Virus record (IMG/VR): IMGVR_UViG_3300042868_004441
Location: 1-21,734 of that record
Source of the DNA: a virus
Direction: 5' to 3' (one strand)
Length of the DNA stretch: 21,734 bases
In this document: positions 3,198-21,038 of the stretch, one piece after another
Numbering within the stretch: position 1 is the first letter of the stretch
Layout: every line of letters starts with the position of its first letter
Translations under genes and position numbers: made by a program
The notes under the pieces: model-generated
Database searches by the model: none
Told to the model about the DNA's origin: nothing
Seen by the model: the letters and a program-made list of their open reading frames with translations, nothing else

Positions 3198-3316
3198 AAC
3201 AAATAGAAAATACTAATCTATATTTATGCCTTAACACTGCGTCTTTAATGAAAGATAGAATTATTAAAGAACGTAATGAATTAAAGAAATTAGAAAACCA
3301 GAATAAAACAAGATGA
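2990..3316 (+). CDS. -1 frame extension of the tail assembly chaperone
   Basis: This frame opens just after a TAA at 2987-2989 and ends at TGA 3314-3316, overlapping the ATG of the next gene. A -1 shift at the T10 run would join residues 1-170 of the upstream frame to this sequence and give one 268-residue protein. The extension carries an acidic stretch (DGETTDADTEDTAKMGATEA) and then a helical, charged region (YLCLNTASLMKDRIIKERNE) that looks like real coding sequence. Three explanations are possible: programmed frameshifting; a homopolymer miscount in the assembly (one more T would fuse the frames permanently); or a separate gene starting at the ATG at 3119 (65 residues). The position and the phasing of the T run favour the first two. 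Confidence 0.6.
   Translation, partial: VLVWGSHFFFSNCKNIHTRYKEFFGYEEQDGETTDADTEDTAKMGATEATLRFYFELTYELANRDLTKIEQIENTNLYLCLNTASLMKDRIIKERNELKKLENQNKTR
3011..3020 (+). promoter_or_regulatory. T10 run, candidate -1 frameshift slippery site
   Basis: Ten T residues follow ACx in the coding sequence. In the upstream frame the codons read ACT TTT TTT TTT CTA, so the canonical T TTT TTT heptamer is in the correct phase at 3011-3017 and again at 3014-3020. Slippage by -1 leads directly into the open frame that ends at 3316. I do not see a convincing downstream stem-loop, so the homopolymer itself would be the main driver. Confidence 0.55.
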
Positions 3317-3858
3317 ACGAATACATAACCTTTCATAAGATTTTAGATTACTTACAGGAGTGGGTAGATGGCTCACCCATAATGAATACATTTGGGTATG
3401 GTAATCTTGTAGATTTTGGTAAAAACATATCAGGGACTACAACACCGAATTATCCTTTCTTATTCGCAGTCCCACAAGCGATTACTTATGATGAGAACAC
3501 AACAACTTATCAACTTACACTTATCTTTGCCGATATTCTAAATACAGATGTTAATAATGAAAAAGATTGTGTGAGTGATATGTCCTTACAAGCAAGAAGG
3601 TTCTTATCATCTATCAAGTGGGGACAAAACACATATCCCTATATGTATGATAATATGGATTGTGTTATACCTGCGGCAGCCATACCCTTCTTTGAACGTA
3701 TGAGCGACCACGTGGCAGGTGTTGCCTTGGATACAAACATCATTATCTTTGAGGACTTAAACGCTTGTGATTACTATGTTAGTCCTACTCCATCTGTAAG
3801 TGCGTCAGCCACTCCAACACCCACAATAACTCCAACGCCCACAATAACACCATCATAA
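3313..3858 (+). CDS. Tail terminator/completion-like protein with Pro/Thr tail
   Basis: The product has 181 residues. Residues 1-155 resemble the tail-terminator or tail-completion proteins of long-tailed phages. They show an N-terminal helix (FHKILDYLQEWV), a central beta region (FPFLFAV-like segment 47-53, then YQLTLIFADIL at 66-76) and a helix (DCVSDMSLQARRFLSSIKW). This pattern is familiar to me from Bacteroidota phages, but the match is from memory. Such a protein caps the end of the tail tube and joins it to the head. Residues 157-181 form a Pro/Thr/Ser-rich tail (TPTPTITPTPTITPS) like the linkers in the adhesin genes further downstream. That is unusual for a neck component and might expose this end of the protein on the virion. 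It starts at an ATGA overlap with the chaperone extension. Confidence 0.55.
   Translation: MNEYITFHKILDYLQEWVDGSPIMNTFGYGNLVDFGKNISGTTTPNYPFLFAVPQAITYDENTTTYQLTLIFADILNTDVNNEKDCVSDMSLQARRFLSSIKWGQNTYPYMYDNMDCVIPAAAIPFFERMSDHVAGVALDTNIIIFEDLNACDYYVSPTPSVSASATPTPTITPTPTITPS
3781..3855 (+). repeat. Pro/Thr-rich coding repeat, C-terminus of tail terminator-like gene
   Basis: This is a low-complexity coding array for residues 157-181 built of Thr-Pro and Thr-Pro-Ser/Thr-Ile units. DNA motifs such as actccaac and cccacaataac recur within it. It belongs to the same linker type found in four further genes of this window. Confidence 0.85.
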
Positions 3859-4457: not shown

Positions 4458-6071
4458 ATGAGTGTAATTTTTACAAATACCCCCGAACAATTCCAACCCG
4501 TATTGAGTGATGGAATATTTTTTACAGCATCTGCTGATACAACCAACACATACAATTTTAGATATGTCTATGACTTGTATGTAAATAATGAATTGGTGTT
4601 TCAGGGAAAAGCCACACCTAATCCTTTTGGGTTGGGAATAATTGATTTACAACAGATATTAGAAACATATTGTTTTAATAATGTAATCGCAGATTGGAAC
4701 GGAACAACAATTTACACTCACACAACCTTTCCATTTTCCAAACCTTACTATGATGAAACAATTACTTATCAAGTAAAATGTGGATATGAATATTCATCAA
4801 CTCCATTAGGAGCGATTACAGGATTTACTGGTAATGGTAATGCGATTGGAACACCAGCATATTCATCACAACAATACAAAACTTTCCGTTCAACTATGGG
4901 GGTAAATGGTAGAGCAACACAACAAAGTTTTAACATAGACCCATTTGTATTATCAGGAGACCCAACAACAATCAATCCTACAACATCAGGTTTGTTTTTA
5001 ACTAACTCACCAAGAATTAGAAACATACAACCAACAGAGTATTACACATTAGGATTTACAAACTACTTTTTAGGTGGAGCAATATTGAGTGAGCCTTACT
5101 ATGTGAAATATACCTTCTACGACAATCAAGGAACAGAGATTACAGGAACAACCTATGAGAACATCACCACTAATGGTGGAGGTCCAAGAACATCTTGTAA
5201 TCAAGTGTATCAATCAATCTACCAAGTATCACCAACAAGCGCATCAACATATAACACACTTTATGTAGGAGCAGGACCACAGAACATACCTAATTTCCCT
5301 CCAAATTGTGCTCAATATACAATTCAGTTATACGGGGTATTTACAGGGACAACATCACCGATACAACCCACTCCAACGCCTACGCCGTCTCCTACGGCAA
5401 CCAGCACCACTCCTACGCCCACTCCTACTCCTTCGGCAACCCCTGGTTGTGGAACTTGTAATGAGTATGCTATTACAAACACAGGTAGTAGCACAGCAAC
5501 AATCTTTATTGTAAATTGTAGTAATGGAGCATCACAATCATTTACAGCACTTACAGGACAAACCTACGTAGCTTGTTCTTGTTCTATACCTACAAGTGAG
5601 TTTGGAACAATTGATATACAACTATTAGGTGCTTGTAGTGTTCCACAACCATCACCAACTCCTACTCCTTCGGCAACCCCATCACCGGCTGTTCCTTGTA
5701 TCTGTTTAGAATATGAGTGTGTGGCAGCAGTTGATAGTTTTGGATTTGTAGATTATACGGATTGTAATGGAGTTGCTGCTCAACTTTATATGTTCCCTAA
5801 CACAACTGAATACATCTGTGCTTGCCAAGATAGTCCAGTTGGATTTAATGTTAGTGTGGTAGAAAGCGGACCTTATTGTGGTTGTAATTGTTCATCATAT
5901 AATGTGTTAAACACTTATGGTGGAACTTTATACTTTGATTATATTGATTGTGATGGAGACGCACAAACATTACCAATTGACGCAGGTGATGACTTTAACA
6001 TCTGTGCTTGTTTTGGAACTATTATTCCACAGACAGAACCATTAACCATAACTTATCTTGGAACTTGTTAA
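4458..6071 (+). CDS. Tail-associated protein with three Cys modules and Pro/Thr linkers
   Basis: The product has 537 residues. Residues 1-300 form a beta-rich domain beginning with a pattern (YVYDLYVNNELVFQGKATPN, 36-55) typical of a tail protein family in Bacteroidota phages. A Pro/Thr linker (303-329) is followed by three related modules of about 60 residues (330-393, 414-474, 475-537), with a second linker at 397-412. Each module has a Cys-x-Gly-type site (Cys354, Cys436, Cys498), then 18-19 residues later a CxC motif (373/375, 454/456, 516/518). The modules may be disulfide- or metal-stabilised surface domains; their function is unknown to me. The gene sits between a neck gene and another tail gene, so a tail-tip or decoration role is plausible. 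No signal peptide is present, as expected for a virion protein. Confidence 0.6.
   Translation: MSVIFTNTPEQFQPVLSDGIFFTASADTTNTYNFRYVYDLYVNNELVFQGKATPNPFGLGIIDLQQILETYCFNNVIADWNGTTIYTHTTFPFSKPYYDETITYQVKCGYEYSSTPLGAITGFTGNGNAIGTPAYSSQQYKTFRSTMGVNGRATQQSFNIDPFVLSGDPTTINPTTSGLFLTNSPRIRNIQPTEYYTLGFTNYFLGGAILSEPYYVKYTFYDNQGTEITGTTYENITTNGGGPRTSCNQVYQSIYQVSPTSASTYNTLYVGAGPQNIPNFPPNCAQYTIQLYGVFTGTTSPIQPTPTPTPSPTATSTTPTPTPTPSATPGCGTCNEYAITNTGSSTATIFIVNCSNGASQSFTALTGQTYVACSCSIPTSEFGTIDIQLLGACSVPQPSPTPTPSATPSPAVPCICLEYECVAAVDSFGFVDYTDCNGVAAQLYMFPNTTEYICACQDSPVGFNVSVVESGPYCGCNCSSYNVLNTYGGTLYFDYIDCDGDAQTLPIDAGDDFNICACFGTIIPQTEPLTITYLGTC
5364..5444 (+). repeat. Pro/Thr-rich coding repeat, first linker of Cys-module tail protein
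   Basis: The array encodes residues 303-329 (TPTPTPSPT-type units) and separates the N-terminal tail domain from the first Cys module. A shorter related array at 5646-5693 (residues 397-412) separates modules one and two. Modules two and three have no linker between them. Confidence 0.85.
5646..5693 (+). repeat. Pro/Thr-rich coding repeat, second linker of Cys-module tail protein
   Basis: This array encodes residues 397-412 (PSPTPTPSATPSP). The DNA stretch actcctactccttcggcaac recurs from the end of the first linker (around 5422-5441), so the two linkers probably arose by duplication together with the adjoining module. Confidence 0.8.
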
Positions 6072-6624: not shown

Positions 6625-9183
6625 GTGGATACTACATTGCTATTATTTCTAAATGGTGCTTATCAAAGGGTAGATATATTTGAGGATATACAGATTACCA
6701 TTACAATTCAACAAGCGGAATTAAACCCACTTAACTCACGTAGAGCACCATATTCCAAAGTTATACAAATACCTTCAACCAGTAATAATGATATATTATT
6801 TGAGCATTTTTTTGAACCTAATGGAATTGATTACAACCCATTATTTAAGGTTCCAGCCGTGGTTCAGTATAGGGGCACAGATATTTTTACTGGTGTATTA
6901 AGATTAAATAGCGTAGTATCTGTTAGTGGAAAAAGATATTATGAGGTTTATATCTTGGGAGATACAGCAGATTTTGCGAGTGAGTTTAAGGACTTATTAT
7001 TACAGGATTTAAATTGGAGCGAACTTACCCACACATTAGATTATTCAGCAGTTACGAACTCTTGGTATGCCAACGGAGATGGAACATCAGGTATTTTTGG
7101 TGGTAATATAATTTATCCATTAGTAAATTATGGATTAGAATATGAAGGGTCATCTACCGCATCTACTTACTCTATGTCTTTTGGTTTAGAGAATAGTTTT
7201 GACCAAAGTGGATATGCTATACCACCCGAGAACTTTAAACCCGCCATAAAGGTTAAATATGTGTTAGATAAGATATTTGATACAACCCAATATAAAGTTA
7301 ATTCTACTTTCTTTGAAACAGATTATTTCAAGAGTATCTATATGGATACTTTCCTAAATGGAAAAGTAGGTATTTCAACAGCATCGGCAACCACTAACCA
7401 AAACATATTTTTAGCCCAAAGGGAAAAACAAACAACAATCAGGTATAGAAAAGATACTACTATACCATTTCCATTTTCTACAAACATAGCAGGTTCTTAC
7501 AATCCACTTGGTAATTTCTATAATGCTGGTTCAATACAAAATCCTACAAATAGTTTTTTTGTGGCTCCGTATGCTGGCACTTATTCCTTTAACTTAAAGT
7601 TTGGATTTAAGCCGGCAGAAACAACAATATTAACTGGTAGTGTTAATTTCTTATGTAAGGTAAATGGTATTACTCAATTCACATCACAGGAATACAAGAT
7701 GTCCCAAAATGGCACACTTGGAGTAAATGTAAATCTATTCATCAATTTATCACTTACTAATGGTGATGAGGTAGAATTGTTTATACAGATGAACGAAGGT
7801 ATTATTAAGTTCGCTGGTGAGGTAGGACAAACCAATTTCATTATCCGTGAGTTTGGAATAAATATAGATGCTGAGGAAATACCACCCACCTTTGATTTAT
7901 ACAATTCACCATCTTTAATTGGTGAGCAACTTGTAGATATGAAATTAGGTATTCCAAATATAAATTGTTATGAGTTTTTTAAGAGTATGATTACTATGTT
8001 TAATCTTGTAATAATTCAAGATGAGGCAAGGAAAGAAATATTGATAGAACCTTACAACTGGTATTTTAATGAGGAGGATAGAGTAGTTAGAGATTTTACA
8101 AACATCTTGGATATTGATAGTCCATATAAAGTAGAACCATTATCATTTGATTTATCAAAAGAGGTGATATGGACGAACTCTTATACTGACTTTGAGTTCT
8201 TGAATAAACAATTTACAGACGCTAATGATTTTGTTTTTGGTAGATATAGATTTACAGCAGAGGGAGACATTTTGTCGGGTTCTCAAATCTACGAATTACC
8301 ATTTGGTAGTTGTCCTACATCAGGACTTACGGGAGCACCAAACTTTATCATACCAAAGTTTTATTACTTGAATAATGGATTAGAGACAGGATATTCAACA
8401 AAACCACACTTATTCTTTTGGACTGGTAATAGATACGCATATAAAGATGAGTTCAAGCAACAACAAGGGTTTTGGTATTTATTATCAGGAACAACGGGAA
8501 TACAACAAACAACATATCCCGCAGTATCCCACTTATCAACATTAGATAGTTTATTACCATCAGTAGTAAGTGATTTGAACTTTTTACCTACCTTTGATTT
8601 CTTTGGCAATAGTAATACACAAATTACTCAATTCACACCTTACAATCTATTTGATTTATATTGGAGTGATTACATCAGTAATATCTACTCAAGGGATACA
8701 AGGAGAGTATCAGGTAGATTTTTCATAAGACCAATAGATATTCATAACATAAAGTTAAATGATAAAATCTTTATCAAAGATGGTAATTATACGATTGAGA
8801 AAATAACTGATGCGAACTTGGTGGATAAAGTCCTAACAGAAATAAGTTTAATAAAAGATATTTTCCCATACTATAAAACAGAACCACCAGCACCTTTTTA
8901 CTTTATTAGTCCAAATGAACCATACCCTGGATTAGAACCTGCGTTTAATTATATGGCTTATGTATCCACTAATGAAACTCAAGTATGTAATGGAACAACA
9001 CCATCACTTACAGAGATTGTAGTGTTCGGTGGAATAGTAGAAAATGGTAGTAGAGTGTGGTATGAAAATGGAGGTTCTTATTCTGTTATACCACTTGGAA
9101 CTTTTGTAAGAACAACTACTTCGGCAGATACATATGTGGTGGTAGATAATTATGGAACAATACTCCAATATAATTGTAATTAA
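6625..9183 (+). CDS. Large tail-tip / baseplate-like structural protein
   Basis: This 852-residue protein begins with LFLNGAYQRVDIFEDIQITI and continues with SKVIQIPSTSNNDILFEHFF (residues 45-64) and RGTDIFTGVLRLNSV (83-97). I associate this arrangement with large tail proteins of Bacteroidota phages that form the tail tip. The middle is beta-rich, and the segment IRPIDIHNIKLNDKIFIKDG late in the protein also fits that family. The last 74 residues (779-852) look like a separate small domain with two cysteines (788 and 851) and an NGSRVWYENGG segment. The only fitting start is the GTG at 6625, eight bases after the previous stop; GTG starts are otherwise rare here, so translation may depend on coupling. 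It lies immediately upstream of the tape measure gene. Confidence 0.6.
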   Translation: MDTTLLLFLNGAYQRVDIFEDIQITITIQQAELNPLNSRRAPYSKVIQIPSTSNNDILFEHFFEPNGIDYNPLFKVPAVVQYRGTDIFTGVLRLNSVVSVSGKRYYEVYILGDTADFASEFKDLLLQDLNWSELTHTLDYSAVTNSWYANGDGTSGIFGGNIIYPLVNYGLEYEGSSTASTYSMSFGLENSFDQSGYAIPPENFKPAIKVKYVLDKIFDTTQYKVNSTFFETDYFKSIYMDTFLNGKVGISTASATTNQNIFLAQREKQTTIRYRKDTTIPFPFSTNIAGSYNPLGNFYNAGSIQNPTNSFFVAPYAGTYSFNLKFGFKPAETTILTGSVNFLCKVNGITQFTSQEYKMSQNGTLGVNVNLFINLSLTNGDEVELFIQMNEGIIKFAGEVGQTNFIIREFGINIDAEEIPPTFDLYNSPSLIGEQLVDMKLGIPNINCYEFFKSMITMFNLVIIQDEARKEILIEPYNWYFNEEDRVVRDFTNILDIDSPYKVEPLSFDLSKEVIWTNSYTDFEFLNKQFTDANDFVFGRYRFTAEGDILSGSQIYELPFGSCPTSGLTGAPNFIIPKFYYLNNGLETGYSTKPHLFFWTGNRYAYKDEFKQQQGFWYLLSGTTGIQQTTYPAVSHLSTLDSLLPSVVSDLNFLPTFDFFGNSNTQITQFTPYNLFDLYWSDYISNIYSRDTRRVSGRFFIRPIDIHNIKLNDKIFIKDGNYTIEKITDANLVDKVLTEISLIKDIFPYYKTEPPAPFYFISPNEPYPGLEPAFNYMAYVSTNETQVCNGTTPSLTEIVVFGGIVENGSRVWYENGGSYSVIPLGTFVRTTTSADTYVVVDNYGTILQYNCN

Positions 9184-12390: not shown

Positions 12391-14922
12391 ATGTTAAAAG
12401 TAATAGAATTACAAATTGAAGAGGCTTTAAGTGCCGATACTGGTGTTTGGGAAGTAGCGTGGGTTGAATATCCTGCTATTGAGGAGGAGTTGATGTATTT
12501 TGGGAGACAAAAGTTTTACAGGGCTCCTGTTAATGTTTCCAAGATTGCTTGCCAAGCGATTAAAGAAAATGAGAAAAGGAACAACAAGGCGGCAACACAG
12601 GTGGGAAAAATTAGAGCACAGCAATTATGTAAAAGAGAAACCATTTCATTAGAAACAATAAATCGTATGAAATCATACTTGGAAAGAGCCAAGGTGTATA
12701 ATACTGATGATTGGGACGATAAAGGGACTATTTCTTGGAAACTATGGGGTGGTAGAGAAGGATTGGAGTGGGTTGATAGTATCTTATCAAGTATAAAGAA
12801 AAAGGAGAATATGGAGATTGAGGACGCTTGTTGGGAAGGATACGAACCTTATGGTATGAAAGAGAAAGATGGTAGATTGGTGCCTAATTGTGTTCCAATT
12901 AAGCAGAGTAAAGAAAAGTTTGTATATCCAAATGCTGGTGAAAATAAAGATGACTTTATTTCAAGATGTATTCCTTATGTATTAAATGAAGGAGCATCAC
13001 AAGAACAAGCGGCGGGTAAATGTTATGGTATGTGGGAAAATAGAGAAAACTTTGACTATGATATATCTGCTTTACCTGCGTATGATAATTACCCTAAATC
13101 AGGTGATACTAACGCTATGTTGGTTAAACCATTTTTAGGTGAGGAGGAGGATTGTGGTTGTATGGCATCCAATAATGAATTAGATGTATTTGGATATAAC
13201 ACCAAGTATTTCTACATTTGTCCTGGTGCTACAGCAACATTTACAGATTTAATAAACAACTCATCATCTTATCCTGATGATACTTTTGGTATGATTAGAA
13301 GTGCTGCGGTAATAGCAGACGCTGTGTTTAAGATTGAAAAAGATGTGTTGGATACTGAAGTATCAACAGAAGCCCAAGTAAAAGAGGCAACTATGTTGGT
13401 AGATGATTTCAAGGATATTATGGTTGAGATTACCAAATTGACTGGTAAAGAATATGATGTATCTTATATGGATAATCACATCAAAACAATATCATCTTAT
13501 CTAAATAGAGAACAATTTAATTTGATGGGATATATTGATGGAGAACCAATATTCTCAACTAAAAAAGAAGCCGAGGACTACGCAGTAAATAAAGGTTGTG
13601 TAGGTTCTCACGAACACAAAGACGAAAATGGTAATGTATCTTATATGGCGTGTGAAACTCACCCAAGTAATCCCAATACAATTGTTGCCAAAGATTATGA
13701 TATTAAATCTATTGGGGGACAAGAAAATATTGAGGTGATATTCAGTAGAGATTATACTGATGATGAAAAAGAAGCGATGGGATTACTAATTCATTTACAA
13801 AGAACGGACTTGGAAAAGTTTGAAGCAGTTGTAGGTCAGTTAAGAGGAGCCACATTAGAACAAGTTAAAAGGAGAAACCATAAAACAGCAACTCCATATT
13901 ACTTGTATAAAAGAGTATTAAACGGAGAACCTAATAGGGATTTCTGTAATAGTATTGAAGGTAGATATTTCCGTAGATTTGAGATTGATTTATTAGATGG
14001 ATTGAATACTCAATTCGGTCATAATAGACAACCATACTCAAAGTGGAATTACAAAGGAGGTCCAAATTGTAATCACGCCTTTTATCGTGTATTGGCTATT
14101 GGTAATAATGTTCGTGAGATTGGACCTGAACCAGGACTACCAGGAACCCCACCTATGAATATGCCAAACAACGGATATTATAGTGAGGAAACAAAAAGAA
14201 AAAGTGAAATCGCATATATCATATCTCAACAGAATATGAGTAAAATGGATTTTGAATTGATTGGAGATTTAACACCACTTGGTTATGTTCAAGGACTACC
14301 GATTTATGATGATGAACTTATAGCAACAGATGCGTCTTACGCTATTGGTTGTGGGGGGATTTATGAGAGTGTTATGTATGAAGGAAAACAAAGGTTTCAG
14401 GCTTGTTCTTACAAGGCAGAAAAGAAGGAAAAGGGTGATGCCTTATTCCGTGCTGTTGTTGAAAAGAAAATGATTTACACACCACTTATGGTGCCAAATA
14501 TTTTAATTCCAAGATTAGATGAAATTACTGGTGAAAGATATTTTGTAAAGTTCTCACCTGAAACAATTGAAAAGATACAACAAAAGTTTATGATAGAACA
14601 AAGGCTTCGTGATACAAACTATGAACATACTGATATGAAGTTTCAGGACTTGGTAATGGTTGAGAGTTGGTTAGTAGATGGAGATAGTGATAAATCATAT
14701 TCATTAGGATATACCGCACAACAAATACCAAAGGGAACCTGGATGGCAGGATACAAAGTGTTAGATACTGATGAAGGAAATGATGTTTGGAATAAATATA
14801 TTAAGACAGGAAAGGTGAAAGGTGCGAGTGTAGAAGGAAACTTTTTACTAAACTTTTCCCGTTCAAATAATGATGAGTATTTATTAGAACAAATAATAAA
14901 CATATTAAAAGAAATAAAATAA
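12391..14922 (+). CDS. Multi-module capsid maturation protease, XkdF-like
   Basis: This 843-residue protein ends in an XkdF-like prohead protease domain (about 740-830) with MVESWLVDGD, PKGTWMAGYKV and KGASVEG. By analogy with this fold, His746 and Ser813 are the catalytic candidates. Upstream modules are: residues 60-128 (ATQVGKIRAQQL, then LWGGREGLEW), a block common in phage head proteins; a Cys-containing GYEPYGMK module (147-170); an FISRCIPYVLNEG module (189-215); a segment resembling the capsid protein N-terminus (220-250); a Gly-Cys module at 378-425 with a second copy at 629-675; and between these a Cys/His-containing region (DFCNSIEGRYF, then YKGGPNCNHAF, 517-564) like that of phage head-morphogenesis proteins. 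It is far larger than single-domain prohead proteases. It precedes the scaffold and capsid genes, as expected. Confidence 0.8.
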   Translation: MLKVIELQIEEALSADTGVWEVAWVEYPAIEEELMYFGRQKFYRAPVNVSKIACQAIKENEKRNNKAATQVGKIRAQQLCKRETISLETINRMKSYLERAKVYNTDDWDDKGTISWKLWGGREGLEWVDSILSSIKKKENMEIEDACWEGYEPYGMKEKDGRLVPNCVPIKQSKEKFVYPNAGENKDDFISRCIPYVLNEGASQEQAAGKCYGMWENRENFDYDISALPAYDNYPKSGDTNAMLVKPFLGEEEDCGCMASNNELDVFGYNTKYFYICPGATATFTDLINNSSSYPDDTFGMIRSAAVIADAVFKIEKDVLDTEVSTEAQVKEATMLVDDFKDIMVEITKLTGKEYDVSYMDNHIKTISSYLNREQFNLMGYIDGEPIFSTKKEAEDYAVNKGCVGSHEHKDENGNVSYMACETHPSNPNTIVAKDYDIKSIGGQENIEVIFSRDYTDDEKEAMGLLIHLQRTDLEKFEAVVGQLRGATLEQVKRRNHKTATPYYLYKRVLNGEPNRDFCNSIEGRYFRRFEIDLLDGLNTQFGHNRQPYSKWNYKGGPNCNHAFYRVLAIGNNVREIGPEPGLPGTPPMNMPNNGYYSEETKRKSEIAYIISQQNMSKMDFELIGDLTPLGYVQGLPIYDDELIATDASYAIGCGGIYESVMYEGKQRFQACSYKAEKKEKGDALFRAVVEKKMIYTPLMVPNILIPRLDEITGERYFVKFSPETIEKIQQKFMIEQRLRDTNYEHTDMKFQDLVMVESWLVDGDSDKSYSLGYTAQQIPKGTWMAGYKVLDTDEGNDVWNKYIKTGKVKGASVEGNFLLNFSRSNNDEYLLEQIINILKEIK

Positions 14923-14925
14923 AAG

Positions 14926-15693
14926 ATGAACGCAAAAGAAGCATTAGAACGCATATCTACCTTGTTAAATCTCAATTTTAAGGCTGAAAAGTTTTACACT
15001 ACCAAATTGAAAGATGGTATGACTGAAATTACTAATAATAAAACAGAAGATTTTATGATTGGTGATGAGGTTTATATGGTAGGTGAAAGCACTTTGGCAC
15101 CTGTATTAGAAGGTGATTACATTACTCGTGAGGGTATGATAATTAAAACCGATGAGATGGGTAAAATTGTTTCTATGGCAGCAGAGATGGAGGACGAAAA
15201 TGACGCCACCGCTGAAATAGAAATAGAAATTGGAGATGAAAAAGAGGATATGATGAGCGCAGCAGAATTAACTGATGGAACAAAAATTGAAACCGATGAG
15301 ACTGGTGATTTTAAGGTAGGACAAAAACTCTACGTTATTACAGAAGCCGGTGATAAAGTATCAGCACCTGAAGGAGAACACACAACCAAATCTGGTGTTG
15401 TAGTAGTAGTAGATGGTGAAGGATTTATCACAGGAGTAAAATACCCTGATAAAGATGGTGAAGGTTCTTTAAGTGAAATGAAAAAAATGAAAGAGGCTAT
15501 GGCTGAAATGATTGGATTGATTAAAGACCTAAATGATTTTAGAGCAGATTTTAACAAAATGAAAACTGACTTTGAAACATTTAAGAAACAACCAGACAGA
15601 GAACCTGTAGTTAAAAAGTTCAGCACAACCTCTGCTGATAGATTAGATTGGAAATTGGAACTTATTAAGAGTTCAAGAGGAGTAAAAAAATAA
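14926..15693 (+). CDS. Scaffold-like protein with duplicated beta domain
   Basis: This 255-residue acidic protein lies between protease and capsid genes, the usual place for a scaffold. It has two copies of a beta-rich unit. The first, about residues 25-85, contains DFMIGDEVYMV and LEGDYITREGMII; the second, about 114-172, contains DFKVGQKLYVI and PEGEHTTKSGVVV. A Glu/Asp-rich linker separates them. Residues 182-222 form a likely coiled coil (EMKKMKEAMAEMIGLIKDL). The basic C-terminus (RLDWKLELIKSSRGVKK) could be the capsid-binding helix, as in other scaffolds. It starts three bases after the protease stop. The role is inferred from position and shape; the duplicated unit itself I do not recognise as an enzyme. 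Confidence 0.7.
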   Translation: MNAKEALERISTLLNLNFKAEKFYTTKLKDGMTEITNNKTEDFMIGDEVYMVGESTLAPVLEGDYITREGMIIKTDEMGKIVSMAAEMEDENDATAEIEIEIGDEKEDMMSAAELTDGTKIETDETGDFKVGQKLYVITEAGDKVSAPEGEHTTKSGVVVVVDGEGFITGVKYPDKDGEGSLSEMKKMKEAMAEMIGLIKDLNDFRADFNKMKTDFETFKKQPDREPVVKKFSTTSADRLDWKLELIKSSRGVKK

Positions 15694-15721: not shown

Positions 15722-16675
15722 ATGGAAAATAAAAAAACAACCAAAATGAACTTTAACTATGATTTGACGAACTTACCGACATATAATAGTTATGGAGACG
15801 AAATGCTTATCAAAGCGTTCTTGGGATTGACTTTGCCAAAGTATTCTATGGTGAAGCCTAATTTAAAGGGCACAACTGAAAAAGTAGGTTTCGTTACTGA
15901 TGAAATCTTTTTACAAGACCTTTCTTGTGGATTTGACCCTTCTGGAACAACTACTCAAAATGTAGTTACGATTGACTTATGTAATAAGAAATTAAACCAA
16001 CAACTTTGTCCTTATGACTTGTATGATACTTACTTATCTCAATACTTGAGTGATAGTAATTTCCACGAGAGCGTCCCATTTGAGGAAGTAATCTTAACAG
16101 ACATTTCTAACAGAGTTGCTAATGAAATTGAAATCCAATTGTGGAGAAATACTACTGCGACTGGTGCTACTCAATATAACTCACAATGTTTTAATGGTGT
16201 TAAAACTTTGATTACATCAGGTAATGGTGCTACAGCAGTTGCTTACACTGCGGCTACTCCAACAAACGGATTAGATGTATTCACTACTTACTACCAAAAT
16301 ATCCCTCAAAACGTTTTACACAGAGACGATTTGGTAATCTATTGTGGATATGCTGACTATCGTGCGTTAGTTGCTTCTATGAGAAACTCAAGTTACGTCA
16401 ATCTATTCAGTTTTGATGATAAGTCAGCGGCTGCGGGAGACACCTGGAGTGTAATGTTACCCGGAACTAATGTAAGAGTAATTCCTACACAAGGTTTAAC
16501 AGGACAGAACTACGTATGTGCTGGTCCTGCTGGATACATTATGGTAGGTATGAATAACGAAATGATGACTATTCGTAGTATGTATGATATGTTCCAAGAT
16601 GTGATTAAAATTAACCTTCACGCTACTTATGGCGTTGGTGTGTTCTCGGTTGATAGTTTCGTTGCTACAGCATAA
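15722..16675 (+). CDS. Major capsid protein (HK97-fold type)
   Basis: This 317-residue protein resembles the major capsid proteins of Bacteroidota siphoviruses. The N-terminal arm reads NFNYDLTNLPTYNSY (residues 10-24) followed by MLIKAFLG. A long helix, the spine-helix candidate, lies at about 115-142 (VPFEEVILTDISNRVANEIE) and ends in QLWRN. The C-terminal half contains IYCGYADYRALVASMRN and LPGTNVRVIPTQGLTGQN, which match that family's pattern. Position after protease and scaffold, an A-rich leader and the length all agree. There is no long cleavable N-terminal scaffold domain, consistent with the separate upstream scaffold gene. A second ATG at codon 9 could also be used, but the first ATG directly follows the A-rich leader. 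Confidence 0.85.
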   Translation: MENKKTTKMNFNYDLTNLPTYNSYGDEMLIKAFLGLTLPKYSMVKPNLKGTTEKVGFVTDEIFLQDLSCGFDPSGTTTQNVVTIDLCNKKLNQQLCPYDLYDTYLSQYLSDSNFHESVPFEEVILTDISNRVANEIEIQLWRNTTATGATQYNSQCFNGVKTLITSGNGATAVAYTAATPTNGLDVFTTYYQNIPQNVLHRDDLVIYCGYADYRALVASMRNSSYVNLFSFDDKSAAAGDTWSVMLPGTNVRVIPTQGLTGQNYVCAGPAGYIMVGMNNEMMTIRSMYDMFQDVIKINLHATYGVGVFSVDSFVATA

Positions 16676-17318: not shown

Positions 17319-18494
17319 ATGAAGTGGAACGGAAGGAATTATAGACCAGCAGGACAATACATCAGGCACTCAAAGAACAATAAAGAGTTTAACTTTGAGG
17401 ACGCCTTAAAACCTCTTGGAGAAAAAGAGAGTAAAGGAAATATATGGGTGCCTGTGAAACAGGTTATTATGAACGTTCCACAAACAACATCATCAGTTCC
17501 TGTATCACCCACTCCTACTCCGTCAATTACCCCTACAAATACTCAAACGCCTACGCCGAGTATTACCCCAACACAGACGATTACACCGACTAACACGGGA
17601 ACACCTACGCAGACCCCTACAAACACAGGGACACCTACAAATACACCTACCAATACAGGTAGTCCTACTCCTACTCCAAGTAATTTGGCATCAGGCACTA
17701 CCGAAGCCAACGCTTATTTATCAGCAGTAGTATCGGCAGGTGGAACAGGTATTACACCTACAATATCAGCAGCCACAAGAACATTATTCACCTCACTTGT
17801 AAGTAATGGATTGTATAATAAGATAGTCGCTATGTATCCTATGTTAGGTGGTAATAGTGCTGGTTGTAAGTTCAACGCTAAAAATCCTGTTGATACAAAC
17901 GCTGCTATGAGATTAACTTTCGCTGGTGGTTGGACTTTTAGTTCCAAAGGTGCATTACCAAATGGAACAAATGCTTTCGCAAACACTATGTTAGGATTTA
18001 ATACTATTGTATCTGCTAATAACTGGCACTTATCTTTTTATTCACAAACATCAGGAACAAGTGCTGGTGTAGATATGGGAGTGGGTAGGAGTGATACAGC
18101 AGAAAGGTTGGCTGATTTACAATTACGAACAAATACAAATACCGCAATTTTTGATGCTACGACAACAGGTATTTTCGCTGGTAGAATAACAGCAACAGGT
18201 ATTACAAGTGGAACAGGATATTATATTGGAAGCATTATAGCATCAAATAATAGAAGGTATTACAAAAATGGTAGTGAAATAGCATCATCTACATCTAATA
18301 TTAGTAATACATTATCAACATTTTCATTATTTATTGGTGCTTTAAGTGATGAGTTCACACCAAATGTAAGTGCTTATAGTAATAAAGAGTGTAGTTTTTC
18401 TACAATAGGTAGTGGATTAACACCAGCAGAAATGACTACATTATCATCAATAGTGAATACTTGGGCTACAGCCATAGGTAGAAATACATATTAA
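17319..18494 (+). CDS. Fibre/adhesin-like protein A with Pro/Thr linker
   Basis: This 391-residue protein has three parts. Residues 1-60 are a basic N-terminal domain (KWNGRNYRPAGQYIRH) that may anchor it to the virion. Residues 61-121 are a Pro/Thr/Asn-rich linker. Residues 129-391 are a beta-rich domain starting AYLSAVVSAGG and ending LTPAEMTTLSSIV then IGRNTY. The segment SNGLYNKIVAMYPMLGG and the overall Gly/Thr/Ser pattern suggest a concanavalin-like lectin fold, which I cannot confirm by eye. The same C-terminal domain recurs in the gene at 18960, so the two are paralogues. It is the first gene after the hairpin and probably starts the host-recognition block. A receptor-binding role is inferred. 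Confidence 0.6.
   Translation: MKWNGRNYRPAGQYIRHSKNNKEFNFEDALKPLGEKESKGNIWVPVKQVIMNVPQTTSSVPVSPTPTPSITPTNTQTPTPSITPTQTITPTNTGTPTQTPTNTGTPTNTPTNTGSPTPTPSNLASGTTEANAYLSAVVSAGGTGITPTISAATRTLFTSLVSNGLYNKIVAMYPMLGGNSAGCKFNAKNPVDTNAAMRLTFAGGWTFSSKGALPNGTNAFANTMLGFNTIVSANNWHLSFYSQTSGTSAGVDMGVGRSDTAERLADLQLRTNTNTAIFDATTTGIFAGRITATGITSGTGYYIGSIIASNNRRYYKNGSEIASSTSNISNTLSTFSLFIGALSDEFTPNVSAYSNKECSFSTIGSGLTPAEMTTLSSIVNTWATAIGRNTY
17499..17681 (+). repeat. Pro/Thr-rich coding repeat, linker of fibre protein A
   Basis: This is a 183-base array encoding residues 61-121, built from TPTPSITPT, TNTGTPT and TNTPT units. Short DNA blocks such as cctacaaa and acacctac recur irregularly, so it is a degenerate array rather than a uniform tandem repeat. 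Confidence 0.9.
18475..18494 (+). repeat. 20-base direct repeat, 3' end of fibre protein A (partner 20104-20123)
   Basis: The last 20 bases of this gene, including the stop, are identical to the last 20 bases of the paralogue ending at 20123. They encode GRNTY and the stop. Recombination between the copies would remove the 1629 bases between them, that is, the two small genes and the second fibre gene. Confidence 0.85.
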
Positions 18495-18499
18495 AAATT

Positions 18500-18760
18500 A
18501 TGAAAGTAGTATTATTAACAGAAACAGAAAAAGAGAGTTTAGAAGGACAATTAGTTCAGGTAGATTGGTATTTTAATCCAGTATTAGATTGTATCCAAAA
18601 TTGGATTATATCAACAGAGGAGGTAGATAATTCTATTTATCCTCAAAATGATTGGATAAAATCATTACCTTTAATTGATTGGTGCGGACCATTTATTCCA
18701 CCAGTTCCAACTCCAATACCATCTGGAACTACTGAAAGTTATTCAGGTAATACACTATAA
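18500..18760 (+). CDS. Small protein between fibre paralogues
   Basis: This 86-residue protein begins MKVVLLTETEKESLEGQLV and contains a Trp-rich, acidic middle (WIISTEEVDNSIYPQNDW, then LPLIDWCGPF). It ends in a short Pro/Thr stretch (PPVPTPIPSGTTE) that echoes the linkers of its neighbours. I recall similar short proteins following fibre genes in Bacteroidota phages, but I know no defined function. An assembly chaperone for the fibre, or a small tail-fibre component, would fit the position. The gene starts five bases after the stop of fibre protein A, so it is probably on the same transcript. Confidence 0.6.
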   Translation: MKVVLLTETEKESLEGQLVQVDWYFNPVLDCIQNWIISTEEVDNSIYPQNDWIKSLPLIDWCGPFIPPVPTPIPSGTTESYSGNTL

Positions 18761-18763
18761 TTT

Positions 18764-18967
18764 ATGTATAAGGTAGGAGATATAGCCTTTGATGAATATT
18801 ATGTTAAAAGTGTTGAATTGGAATTAGACACTTGTGATTTAACAATAAAGGTGATATTTCATAAAGATAAAATTGAAAGAGAAAAACACTACAAGATAAA
18901 AACAGATTGTAATGTGGATATAAATAAGTTGATTGATAATTTAAGTGAGATATTAAAAAATGAGTAA
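18764..18967 (+). CDS. Small hypothetical protein, coupled to fibre protein B
   Basis: This 67-residue protein has alternating charged and hydrophobic segments (MYKVGDIAFDEYYVKSVELE, then LTIKVIFHKDKIEREKHYKI) that suggest a small beta sheet, followed by a C-terminal helix (INKLIDNLSEILKNE). No family is recognised. It starts three bases after the previous stop, and its last eight bases overlap the ATG of the next fibre gene (18960-18967), which suggests translational coupling. Lysine and glutamate are rich, unlike the Thr/Pro/Gly-rich fibre proteins around it, so it may be a non-structural helper. Confidence 0.6.
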   Translation: MYKVGDIAFDEYYVKSVELELDTCDLTIKVIFHKDKIEREKHYKIKTDCNVDINKLIDNLSEILKNE

Positions 18968-20123
18968 GGTATTTTTAAGAAAACAATTTTCCAACTATCT
19001 TGGTGAGAACCGAGCATTAGATGATATTATTGTGCGTTTTATTCCTGATGGTGGAATTACTCCAACGCCTACTCCTGTTCCTCCTACTCCTACGCCGACC
19101 CCGTCAATTACTCCAAGTATCACACCTTCAGTTACTCCAACAAGGACTTTAACGCCTACGCCGACAATTACAAGCACACCAACAAACACCCCAAGTATTA
19201 CACCTACAAGGACACCTGCTCCTGCTTGTGATATTACTTATACAGAATTACCATCACCAACCCCAAGTCCTACCCCTACTATCACCCCAACGGCAAGTCC
19301 TGGTCCTTCATTTGACCCTGATGCTGCCGCTTACTTATCTGCCGTTGTTGCTGCGGGTGGTAGTGTAACATCACCAATGTCTGCGGCAACAAACAATATG
19401 TTCTTGGCATTAAAGTCAAATGGATTATATAATAAATTAGATGTGTTCTATCCTATGATGGGGGCAACAGCAGCATCAACAGCATTAAACGCAATTAGAA
19501 CAAATAGTGCGTTTGATATTACTTGGAATAATGTTGGTGATTTAAGTTTTACTATTTCAGGTGTAACCAATAATGGAACTGGTTATGGTAATACCAACTA
19601 TAATCCAAATACTCAATCATCACCAACAAATACATCTTTTGGTTATTATATTGTTGGTGGAAATATTGGTGGAGGAAATGGTGAAGTATTCCCATTTGGT
19701 TCTTACGATGGAAACTTAAATATGTTATATCAAAATAGCGGAACAATAGAAATAGGAATATATGGTTGGTCTGTTGCTAATGATACAAGAGCATTATTTA
19801 CCGCTAATACTGGTAGTAATTTCTTTAAGGGTTCTTGGATTGGAACATTTAATTCAACACCACTTAAATCAATTTATTACAACTATAGTGATTTAACTGA
19901 TAGACAAACTTTAAGTGGCACTCCAATAGGTTCTCCAGCATTACCAAATCAACCATATTATATGTTTGTATTAAACTTAAATGGTAGTCCATATACAGGT
20001 CAATATTACACAGGTAGAAATCAATTCGCATTTATGGGTGATTATTTAACACCAGCAGAGGTTACAACTATTGATAGTATAATAAACGCATTCCAAACCT
20101 CATTAGGTAGAAATACATATTAA
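18960..20123 (+). CDS. Fibre/adhesin-like protein B, paralogue of A
   Basis: This 387-residue protein has an N-terminal anchor-like segment (residues 1-33, with basic FLRKQFSNYLGENR), two Pro/Thr arrays (34-88 and 98-117) around a short insert (CDITYTELPSP), and a C-terminal domain (120-387). That domain starts AYLSAVVAAGG and ends LTPAEVTTIDSII then LGRNTY, matching both ends of the domain in fibre protein A. The region between these ends is much less similar: protein A has a GWTFSSKG stretch here, whereas protein B has NVGDLSFTISG and many Asn/Tyr/Gly residues. The two therefore look like duplicated receptor-binding candidates that have diverged in the middle. The anchors also differ, so they may attach to different virion sites. 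Confidence 0.6.
   Translation: MSKVFLRKQFSNYLGENRALDDIIVRFIPDGGITPTPTPVPPTPTPTPSITPSITPSVTPTRTLTPTPTITSTPTNTPSITPTRTPAPACDITYTELPSPTPSPTPTITPTASPGPSFDPDAAAYLSAVVAAGGSVTSPMSAATNNMFLALKSNGLYNKLDVFYPMMGATAASTALNAIRTNSAFDITWNNVGDLSFTISGVTNNGTGYGNTNYNPNTQSSPTNTSFGYYIVGGNIGGGNGEVFPFGSYDGNLNMLYQNSGTIEIGIYGWSVANDTRALFTANTGSNFFKGSWIGTFNSTPLKSIYYNYSDLTDRQTLSGTPIGSPALPNQPYYMFVLNLNGSPYTGQYYTGRNQFAFMGDYLTPAEVTTIDSIINAFQTSLGRNTY
19059..19223 (+). repeat. Pro/Thr-rich coding repeat, first linker of fibre protein B
   Basis: This 165-base array encodes residues 34-88 (TPTPTPVPPTPTPTPSITPS, then TPTRT units). The Arg residues in TPTRTL and TPTRTP set it apart from the other arrays. Confidence 0.9.
19251..19310 (+). 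repeat. Pro/Thr-rich coding repeat, second linker of fibre protein B
   Basis: This 60-base array encodes residues 98-117 (PSPTPSPTPTITPTASPGPS), directly before the C-terminal domain. Confidence 0.85.
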
Positions 20124-20126
20124 GAT

Positions 20127-21038
20127 ATGGCAACACAGATACAATTACAATCTACAAACTATAACGGACAAATAGCCGATATTACCTTCTATCCTTGTAG
20201 TGGTGGAACTATTAGTTTGGGTAATCAAACTATACCATATACTTACACAAATGATAATTATGAGGGAACTTATGATTTGTATTTTTCAGCGTTTAATCAA
20301 ACTTGCCAATTAGTTATTACTTGCCTAACACCTACTCCAACGACCACCACAACGCCTACGATTACTCCTACCAATACACCAAGTATAACCCCAAGTATCA
20401 CTCCTACAAATACAAATACTCCAAGTATTACTCCAACAAATACAAGCACACCGACTAACACTCCAAGTATAACCCCAACCATCACTCCAACAAATAATCC
20501 ATTATGTCCCGAACAAGTTATAGTAATAGATAATGACCCGTTTGGTTTTGACTATAATGGAACTTATGATAGGTTATATTCATATACTGGTGGAACATTT
20601 ATAGGTGGAACATTTGTAGGTAATGTATTTACACCTGGACCTTATTTTGGTAATCTATATGCTATTTATGGTCGTTTTGACGGAACATTTTATTACACTT
20701 TAATCTATAACACATTTAACCCATCGTATCTTGTTTATGTGAGTAATACCAATTATATTGTTAGTAATACTACATTTTTAGGAGCAACATTTTCAACAAA
20801 TCAAACAATAACTGATGGTTCGGTGTTATATCCAAAAGCAGGTTTTAGAACACCGCCAGGAGTAAGTTTGGAGTATCCTATAAGTTGTCCTACTCCAACG
20901 CCAACGATTACCCCAACAAATACAAGCACACCTACTAATACTCCAAGTAGTAGTCCTTTACCACAATATAAACTACAAGCCGAAAACACCGACTTTATAC
21001 AAACAGAAGGTGGAGACGATATAAACATAGAAAATTAA
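20127..21038 (+). CDS. Fibre-associated protein with two Pro/Thr linkers
   Basis: This 303-residue protein starts three bases after the fibre protein B stop. Residues 8-65 form a small beta domain (NYNGQIADITFYPCSGGTIS, then GTYDLYFSAFNQTC) with three cysteines (24, 60 and 66). I recall this domain from structural proteins of Bacteroidota phages. A Pro/Thr array (68-125) leads to a Tyr/Phe/Gly-rich middle domain (126-254) with short repeats such as GGTFIGGTFVGNVF. A second array (255-279) precedes an acidic tail (LQAENTDFIQTEGGDDINIE). The layout is small domains joined by flexible linkers. The position between fibre genes supports a surface adhesin or fibre accessory role; no catalytic motif is seen. 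Confidence 0.6.
   Translation: MATQIQLQSTNYNGQIADITFYPCSGGTISLGNQTIPYTYTNDNYEGTYDLYFSAFNQTCQLVITCLTPTPTTTTTPTITPTNTPSITPSITPTNTNTPSITPTNTSTPTNTPSITPTITPTNNPLCPEQVIVIDNDPFGFDYNGTYDRLYSYTGGTFIGGTFVGNVFTPGPYFGNLYAIYGRFDGTFYYTLIYNTFNPSYLVYVSNTNYIVSNTTFLGATFSTNQTITDGSVLYPKAGFRTPPGVSLEYPISCPTPTPTITPTNTSTPTNTPSSSPLPQYKLQAENTDFIQTEGGDDINIEN
20328..20501 (+). repeat. Pro/Thr-rich coding repeat, first linker of the 20127 gene
   Basis: This 174-base array encodes residues 68-125, mainly ITPTNT and NTPSITP units. A 37-base block at 20433-20469 recurs with two differences at 20913-20949 in the second linker. Confidence 0.9.
20889..20963 (+). repeat. Pro/Thr-rich coding repeat, second linker of the 20127 gene
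   Basis: This 75-base array encodes residues 255-279 (PTPTPTITPTNTSTPTNTPS, then SSPLP). It shares near-identical DNA with the first linker of the same gene. Confidence 0.88.

Follow-up and report, generated by a model that had tools for sequence, protein, structure and literature searches.

The head maturation protease of the phage analysed here carries a short internal segment that closely resembles the N-terminal arm of the phage's own major capsid protein. The best explanation of this resemblance, to which we give a probability of about one half, is that the segment imitates the arm and so docks the protease within the lattice of the procapsid. The stretch of DNA analysed (the window) comprises positions 1-21,734 of the IMG/VR virus record IMGVR_UViG_3300042868_004441 (21.7 kb), and the features on which the argument rests are the following.

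12391..14922, + strand: head maturation protease gene, modular, 843 aa, with the XkdF domain at the C-terminal end
13045..13173, + strand: predicted disordered linker housing the segment, aa 219-261 of the protease (pLDDT < 50)
13048..13140, + strand: arm-like segment, protease aa 220-250, NFDYDISALPAYDNYPKSGDTNAMLVKPFLG, with box 1 = FDYDISALPAYDNY and box 2 = AMLVKPFLG
13177..13506, + strand: helical module 'DVFGYNTKYFYICPGA...', protease aa 263-372, directly after the segment
14926..15693, + strand: candidate scaffold protein, 255 aa, without an arm-like peptide
15722..16675, + strand: major capsid protein of the HK97 fold, 317 aa
15749..15826, + strand: capsid N-terminal arm, aa 10-35, NFNYDLTNLPTYNSYGDEMLIKAFLG, with box 2 within the N-terminal helix

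The first-pass annotation had reported that residues 220-250 of the protease resemble residues 10-35 of the capsid protein, and both the coordinates and the residues proved exact, with 16 of 33 aligned columns identical. BLASTP of one protein against the other returns no further significant segment: this one has a bit score of 32 and an E value of 3e-5, and the runner-up has E = 0.48. When every open stretch of 30 aa or more in the six frames of the window (296 in total) was scanned with the capsid arm, the protease scored 72 and everything else 36 or less, while the best score that any of 300 shuffled arms reached in the six-frame window was 52; the protease is the sole non-capsid match above background. 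The candidate scaffold, which sits between the protease and capsid genes, yielded no arm-like peptide in either the own-arm scan or the motif search.

Relatives of both proteins were taken from viral contigs, all of them metagenomic, giving a comparison set of 165 capsid/XkdF-protease pairs. The shared peptide can be described as two boxes, [DN]xSxLxxYx[DN] and L[IV]x[KR][A/P][IVF]L, separated by a variable linker. Both boxes were found by pattern search in 101 capsid ORFs, 39 protease ORFs and none of 3127 other ORFs, and box 1 alone in 151/201 capsid ORFs, 104/204 protease ORFs and 2/3127 others (these two being proteases cut at contig ends), counts that show specificity rather than discovery because the patterns were derived from these same proteins. 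In typical cases, the upstream protease was the best-scoring ORF when a contig was searched with the arm of its own capsid, at 45-84 compared with about 30 for the runner-up (84 in L161, 80 in L140, 76 in L118, 74 in L168, 72 in L131 and 70 in L002). The own-arm score exceeded all 100 shuffles in 62 of the 165 pairs; many proteases among the others are cut by contig ends or belong to capsid clades without the motif. In the reverse direction, the arm was the best match in the own capsid for 85 of 94 protease segments. Comparison of the capsid-arm profile with the protease-segment profile of each clade gave probabilities of 94-97% (E 1e-7 to 1e-10), and profile scores of 33-45 stood above every column shuffle (maximum 15). 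The proposal of a shared capsid-arm-like peptide is strongly supported: the peptide is matched by clade, specific to capsid and protease and under purifying selection. Neither outcome that the first-pass annotation had named as refuting it was observed, since protease homologues retain the segment and the profile scores exceed those of shuffled controls. Beyond weak Nonlabens matches, no capsid relatives were found among isolated phages, and two query sequences retrieved no named hosts or prophages among 84,980 genomes.

Three main clades emerge when the phages are grouped by their capsid cores, the window phage belonging to clade 0. In clade 0 the capsid reads YNSYGDEMLIKAFLG and the protease YDNYPKSGDTNAMLVKPFLG, with box 2 as MLIKAFLG and MLVKPFLG, respectively; in clade 1 the corresponding sequences are YTDQVGGELIRKAIL and YTDEVGGELVRKPVL (LIRKAIL and LVRKPVL), and in clade 2 YTDQLSTDLITRAIL and YVDQIPKKKKDIVTRAIL (LITRAIL and IVTRAIL). 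Segments score on average 34-45 against their own arm and 21-31 against the arms of other clades. Judged from these sequences, the protease copy bears the features of its own capsid when clades are compared. Finer tracking within clades is unsupported, as permuted arms fit equally well in 905/5000 within-clade trials, and in 1912/2000 for clade 0 alone; we have dropped it on this cross-score permutation, despite a partial Mantel correlation of r = 0.27 (0/2000 permutations) from a test that is too generous with related sequences. With just three main clades, co-inheritance is indistinguishable from active co-evolution, and the match at clade level draws on few independent lineages.

Among complete proteases, the combined pattern detects the segment in 28/34 from clade 0 (four more, L015, L016, L108 and L124, being recognizable by eye), 29/30 from clade 1 and 32/42 from clade 2, where many lack box 2. 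It detects none in the 22 complete proteases of the smaller, more distant capsid clades; one phage of a distant clade (L031) has AYDVSSITGYKD in its protease versus FSYVVSSITGFTD in its own capsid. The segment is not essential for every such protease, since several phages with related capsids do without it. All clade-2 proteases without box 1 carry a 142-aa extension, and we considered whether a scaffold fusion had replaced the motif there; this was rejected, as the extension is an RTFCR...NCKH.W module rather than a scaffold and the phages concerned make up a single subclade.

Residues 219-261 all have pLDDT values below 50 in the AlphaFold2 model of the protease, a disorder that is a prediction only, the model being poor overall (pTM 0.31). 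Within this linker, F221, D222, Y223, L228, P229, G238 and M243 are nearly invariant, and the pattern of substitution points to purifying selection on the segment, which differs from that of L142 by nine synonymous and no nonsynonymous changes. Binding motifs typically show such conservation in regions predicted to be disordered; combined with purifying selection and retention through the exchange of neighbouring modules, it is the signature of a short linear docking motif.

The AlphaFold2 model of the capsid protein (mean pLDDT 76) matches HK97-fold capsids and encapsulins, with a Foldseek E value of 2e-11 (2.9e-11 for HK97, 1ohg) and VIA Z scores of up to 16.7 (15.3 for HK97, rmsd 4.1, 229 residues aligned), and on this model the protein is of the HK97 fold. 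Box 1 of the capsid is modelled with very low confidence (flexible), while box 2 folds as the N-terminal helix (aa 23-34); the alignment places this helix at the N-terminal region of EncA and other encapsulins. The capsid has no long N-terminal delta scaffold domain, its arm starting at residue 10 in the window and at residues 2-3 in clade 2.

We therefore propose that the protease segment, lying in a disordered linker, could act as a short linear motif that imitates the capsid arm of the same phage, a docking role that the first-pass annotation had also suggested. During assembly it would fill a binding site on the inside of the capsid lattice, where the arm of a neighbouring subunit would otherwise sit, with box 1 lying in this site as an extended strand or hook and box 2 as a short helix. 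Docking of this kind would tether the protease inside the procapsid, near its substrates. In two clades, box 2 has Lys-Pro instead of Lys/Arg-Ala, a replacement that would destabilize the helix and could make docking transient. In HK97 the scaffold lies in Prohead I at about the same interior position as the N-arm in Prohead II, so that the interior arm site is exchangeable, scaffold and arm occupying it in turn (PMC10275583); the protease may use such a site to enter the procapsid and to stay there.

The closest parallel is with the cargo-targeting peptides of Family 1 encapsulins, whose cargo-peptide pocket is formed by the N-helix and the P-domain of an HK97-fold shell (PMC6668986, PMC8346489). 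As there, a short peptide in a flexible part of an enzyme would dock here on the inside of the shell, close to these two elements. The docking we infer here involves a segment that resembles the shell protein's own arm, unlike the encapsulin peptides, which are mostly C-terminal, whereas the protease segment is internal (aa 220-250 of 843) and N-terminal only in split proteases. HK97, with its delta-domain scaffold and encapsidated gp4 protease, shares the capsid fold and the placement of the protease beside scaffold and capsid genes. It differs in that the capsid studied here has no long N-terminal scaffold domain, the scaffold candidate being a separate ORF, and in that no arm-resembling protease peptide is described for it in the open-licence literature covered. 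In protease-scaffold fusions (Nonlabens phage P12024S gp01; phrog_24921) the protease likewise adjoins the capsid and a scaffold-like region is delivered along with it; in phage P12024S delivery could be by covalent scaffold fusion, and neither its protease nor its capsid N-terminus carries the motif.

How maturation proteases are recruited to procapsids is poorly known in most phages, and we found no description of a capsid-arm mimic in a protease in the literature (open-licence papers). More tentatively, a large group of tailed phages may recruit its protease by mimicking its own capsid arm, with arm, peptide and groove co-evolving, which would add a third delivery route to scaffold fusion and free encapsidation. 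A defined 30-residue motif that is present in dozens of phages and matched by clade lends itself to a simple deletion or peptide-binding test, and an arm-like motif could be attached to proteins as a tag that directs them into phage shells, much as encapsulin targeting peptides do.

A different role for the same peptide is that of a substrate or pseudosubstrate, the protease recognizing the capsid arm and the segment being either a self-cleavage site or an uncleavable inhibitor peptide in which Lys-Pro replaces Lys/Arg-Ala. Processing of capsid N-termini, and of the protease itself, is frequent among head proteases. The HK97 capsid, for example, is cut at K103/S104 (PMC10275583). In box 2, the capsid Lys-Ala has become Lys/Glu-Pro in clade 0 and clade 1 proteases, as would be expected in a peptide resistant to cleavage after Lys, though this recurrent Ala-to-Pro change fits transient docking and an uncleavable pseudosubstrate alike. 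We nevertheless consider this role unlikely: clade-2 proteases retain the Ala (VTRAIL) or have box 1 without box 2, clade-2 capsids start only 2-3 residues before box 1, and the scaffold, the usual substrate, has no motif. About equally doubtful is a shared third partner, another head protein (scaffold or portal) that binds both arm and segment and co-evolves with both. The very low model confidence of box 1 in both proteins is what a partner-bound peptide would give, and matching at the level of clades fits a common binding site, but nothing specific points to a third protein, and no portal was recognized in the window.

That the segment is a functionless relic of a capsid-protease fusion or duplication, recent or neutral, seems most improbable. 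The two peptides are similar in a way that fits a common ancestry, and the first-pass annotation, which had raised this origin, had also noted similarity at the DNA level. Such similarity is present and is no greater than the protein similarity implies, for the 16 residues identical in segment and arm share 8 codons, where 8.8 are expected from codon usage. As codon identity does not rise above expectation there is no trace of recent copying, and a recent duplication is rejected on this ground. The purely synonymous divergence noted above, and retention of the segment across three deeply divergent capsid clades and through the shuffling of protease modules, also weigh against a relic.

This shuffling is extensive. 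At its C-terminal end the protease has an XkdF domain (Peptidase_S78_2, PF14550; aa 691-817, 43.2 bits against a gathering cut-off of 24), in which the candidate catalytic residues are H746, invariant in 27/27 proteases, and S759, which is Ser in 23 and Thr in 4. The domain is shared with other XkdF-type proteases; unlike in them, it forms part of a long, mosaic polyprotein that also bears an arm-like motif. Several small modules have been gained, lost and reordered among relatives, and the segment is kept while the surrounding HAD, DUF3721 (aa 388-425 in the window) and other modules come and go. The helical module 'DVFGYNTKYFYICPGA...' is a separate gene in L026, L027 and L064. The segment (FDYD...MLVKP) directly follows a HAD-like domain in most close (clade-0) relatives, lies between other modules in L108 and L129, and is N-terminal in L118 and L140, whose protease is divided between two ORFs; the window has lost the HAD domain. 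That the segment is merely the C-terminal tail of this domain, resembling the arm by chance, is barely credible, as it might fit the usual order in clade 0 but the window has the segment without HAD, in these four relatives it lies apart from HAD, many HAD domains lack a tail of this kind, and the profile and clade tests exceed chance.

The HAD-like phosphatase domain found between KCYGMW and FDYD in most relatives is missing at 13038-13050 of the window (compared with L018, L017, L040 and L044), and its motifs look degenerate in L015 and L017 (FDWEVLKT). The two split proteases result from a small gene (MATFT[DE]FLS[ST]LNSCKQQ...) inserted in the polyprotein gene (L118:5387-5770, L140:1114-1542). 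The RTFCR...NCKH.W module is N-terminal to XkdF in most relatives and C-terminal to it in the L286-L300 subclade.

In close relatives, the capsid gene is interrupted around residue 99 by group I introns (Rfam RF00028, 51-84 bits; L002:3663-3901, L059:1073-1369, L106:6655-6882, and a tandem pair in L155 at 8517-8786 and 8844-9110); the capsid gene of the window has none. That gene (15722-16675) matches phrog_11320, a family that matches the HK97-fold capsids of these phages, and phrog_24921 is common to the candidate scaffold (15290-15640) and the protease domain region (14440-14840). Both families are listed as of unknown function; phrog_24921 looks like an XkdF protease-scaffold fusion. Several ORFs of the window (3313-3858, 4458-6071 and 17319-21038) contain long repeats of the PTPTPTPSITP type, which are apparently linkers in tail or surface proteins.
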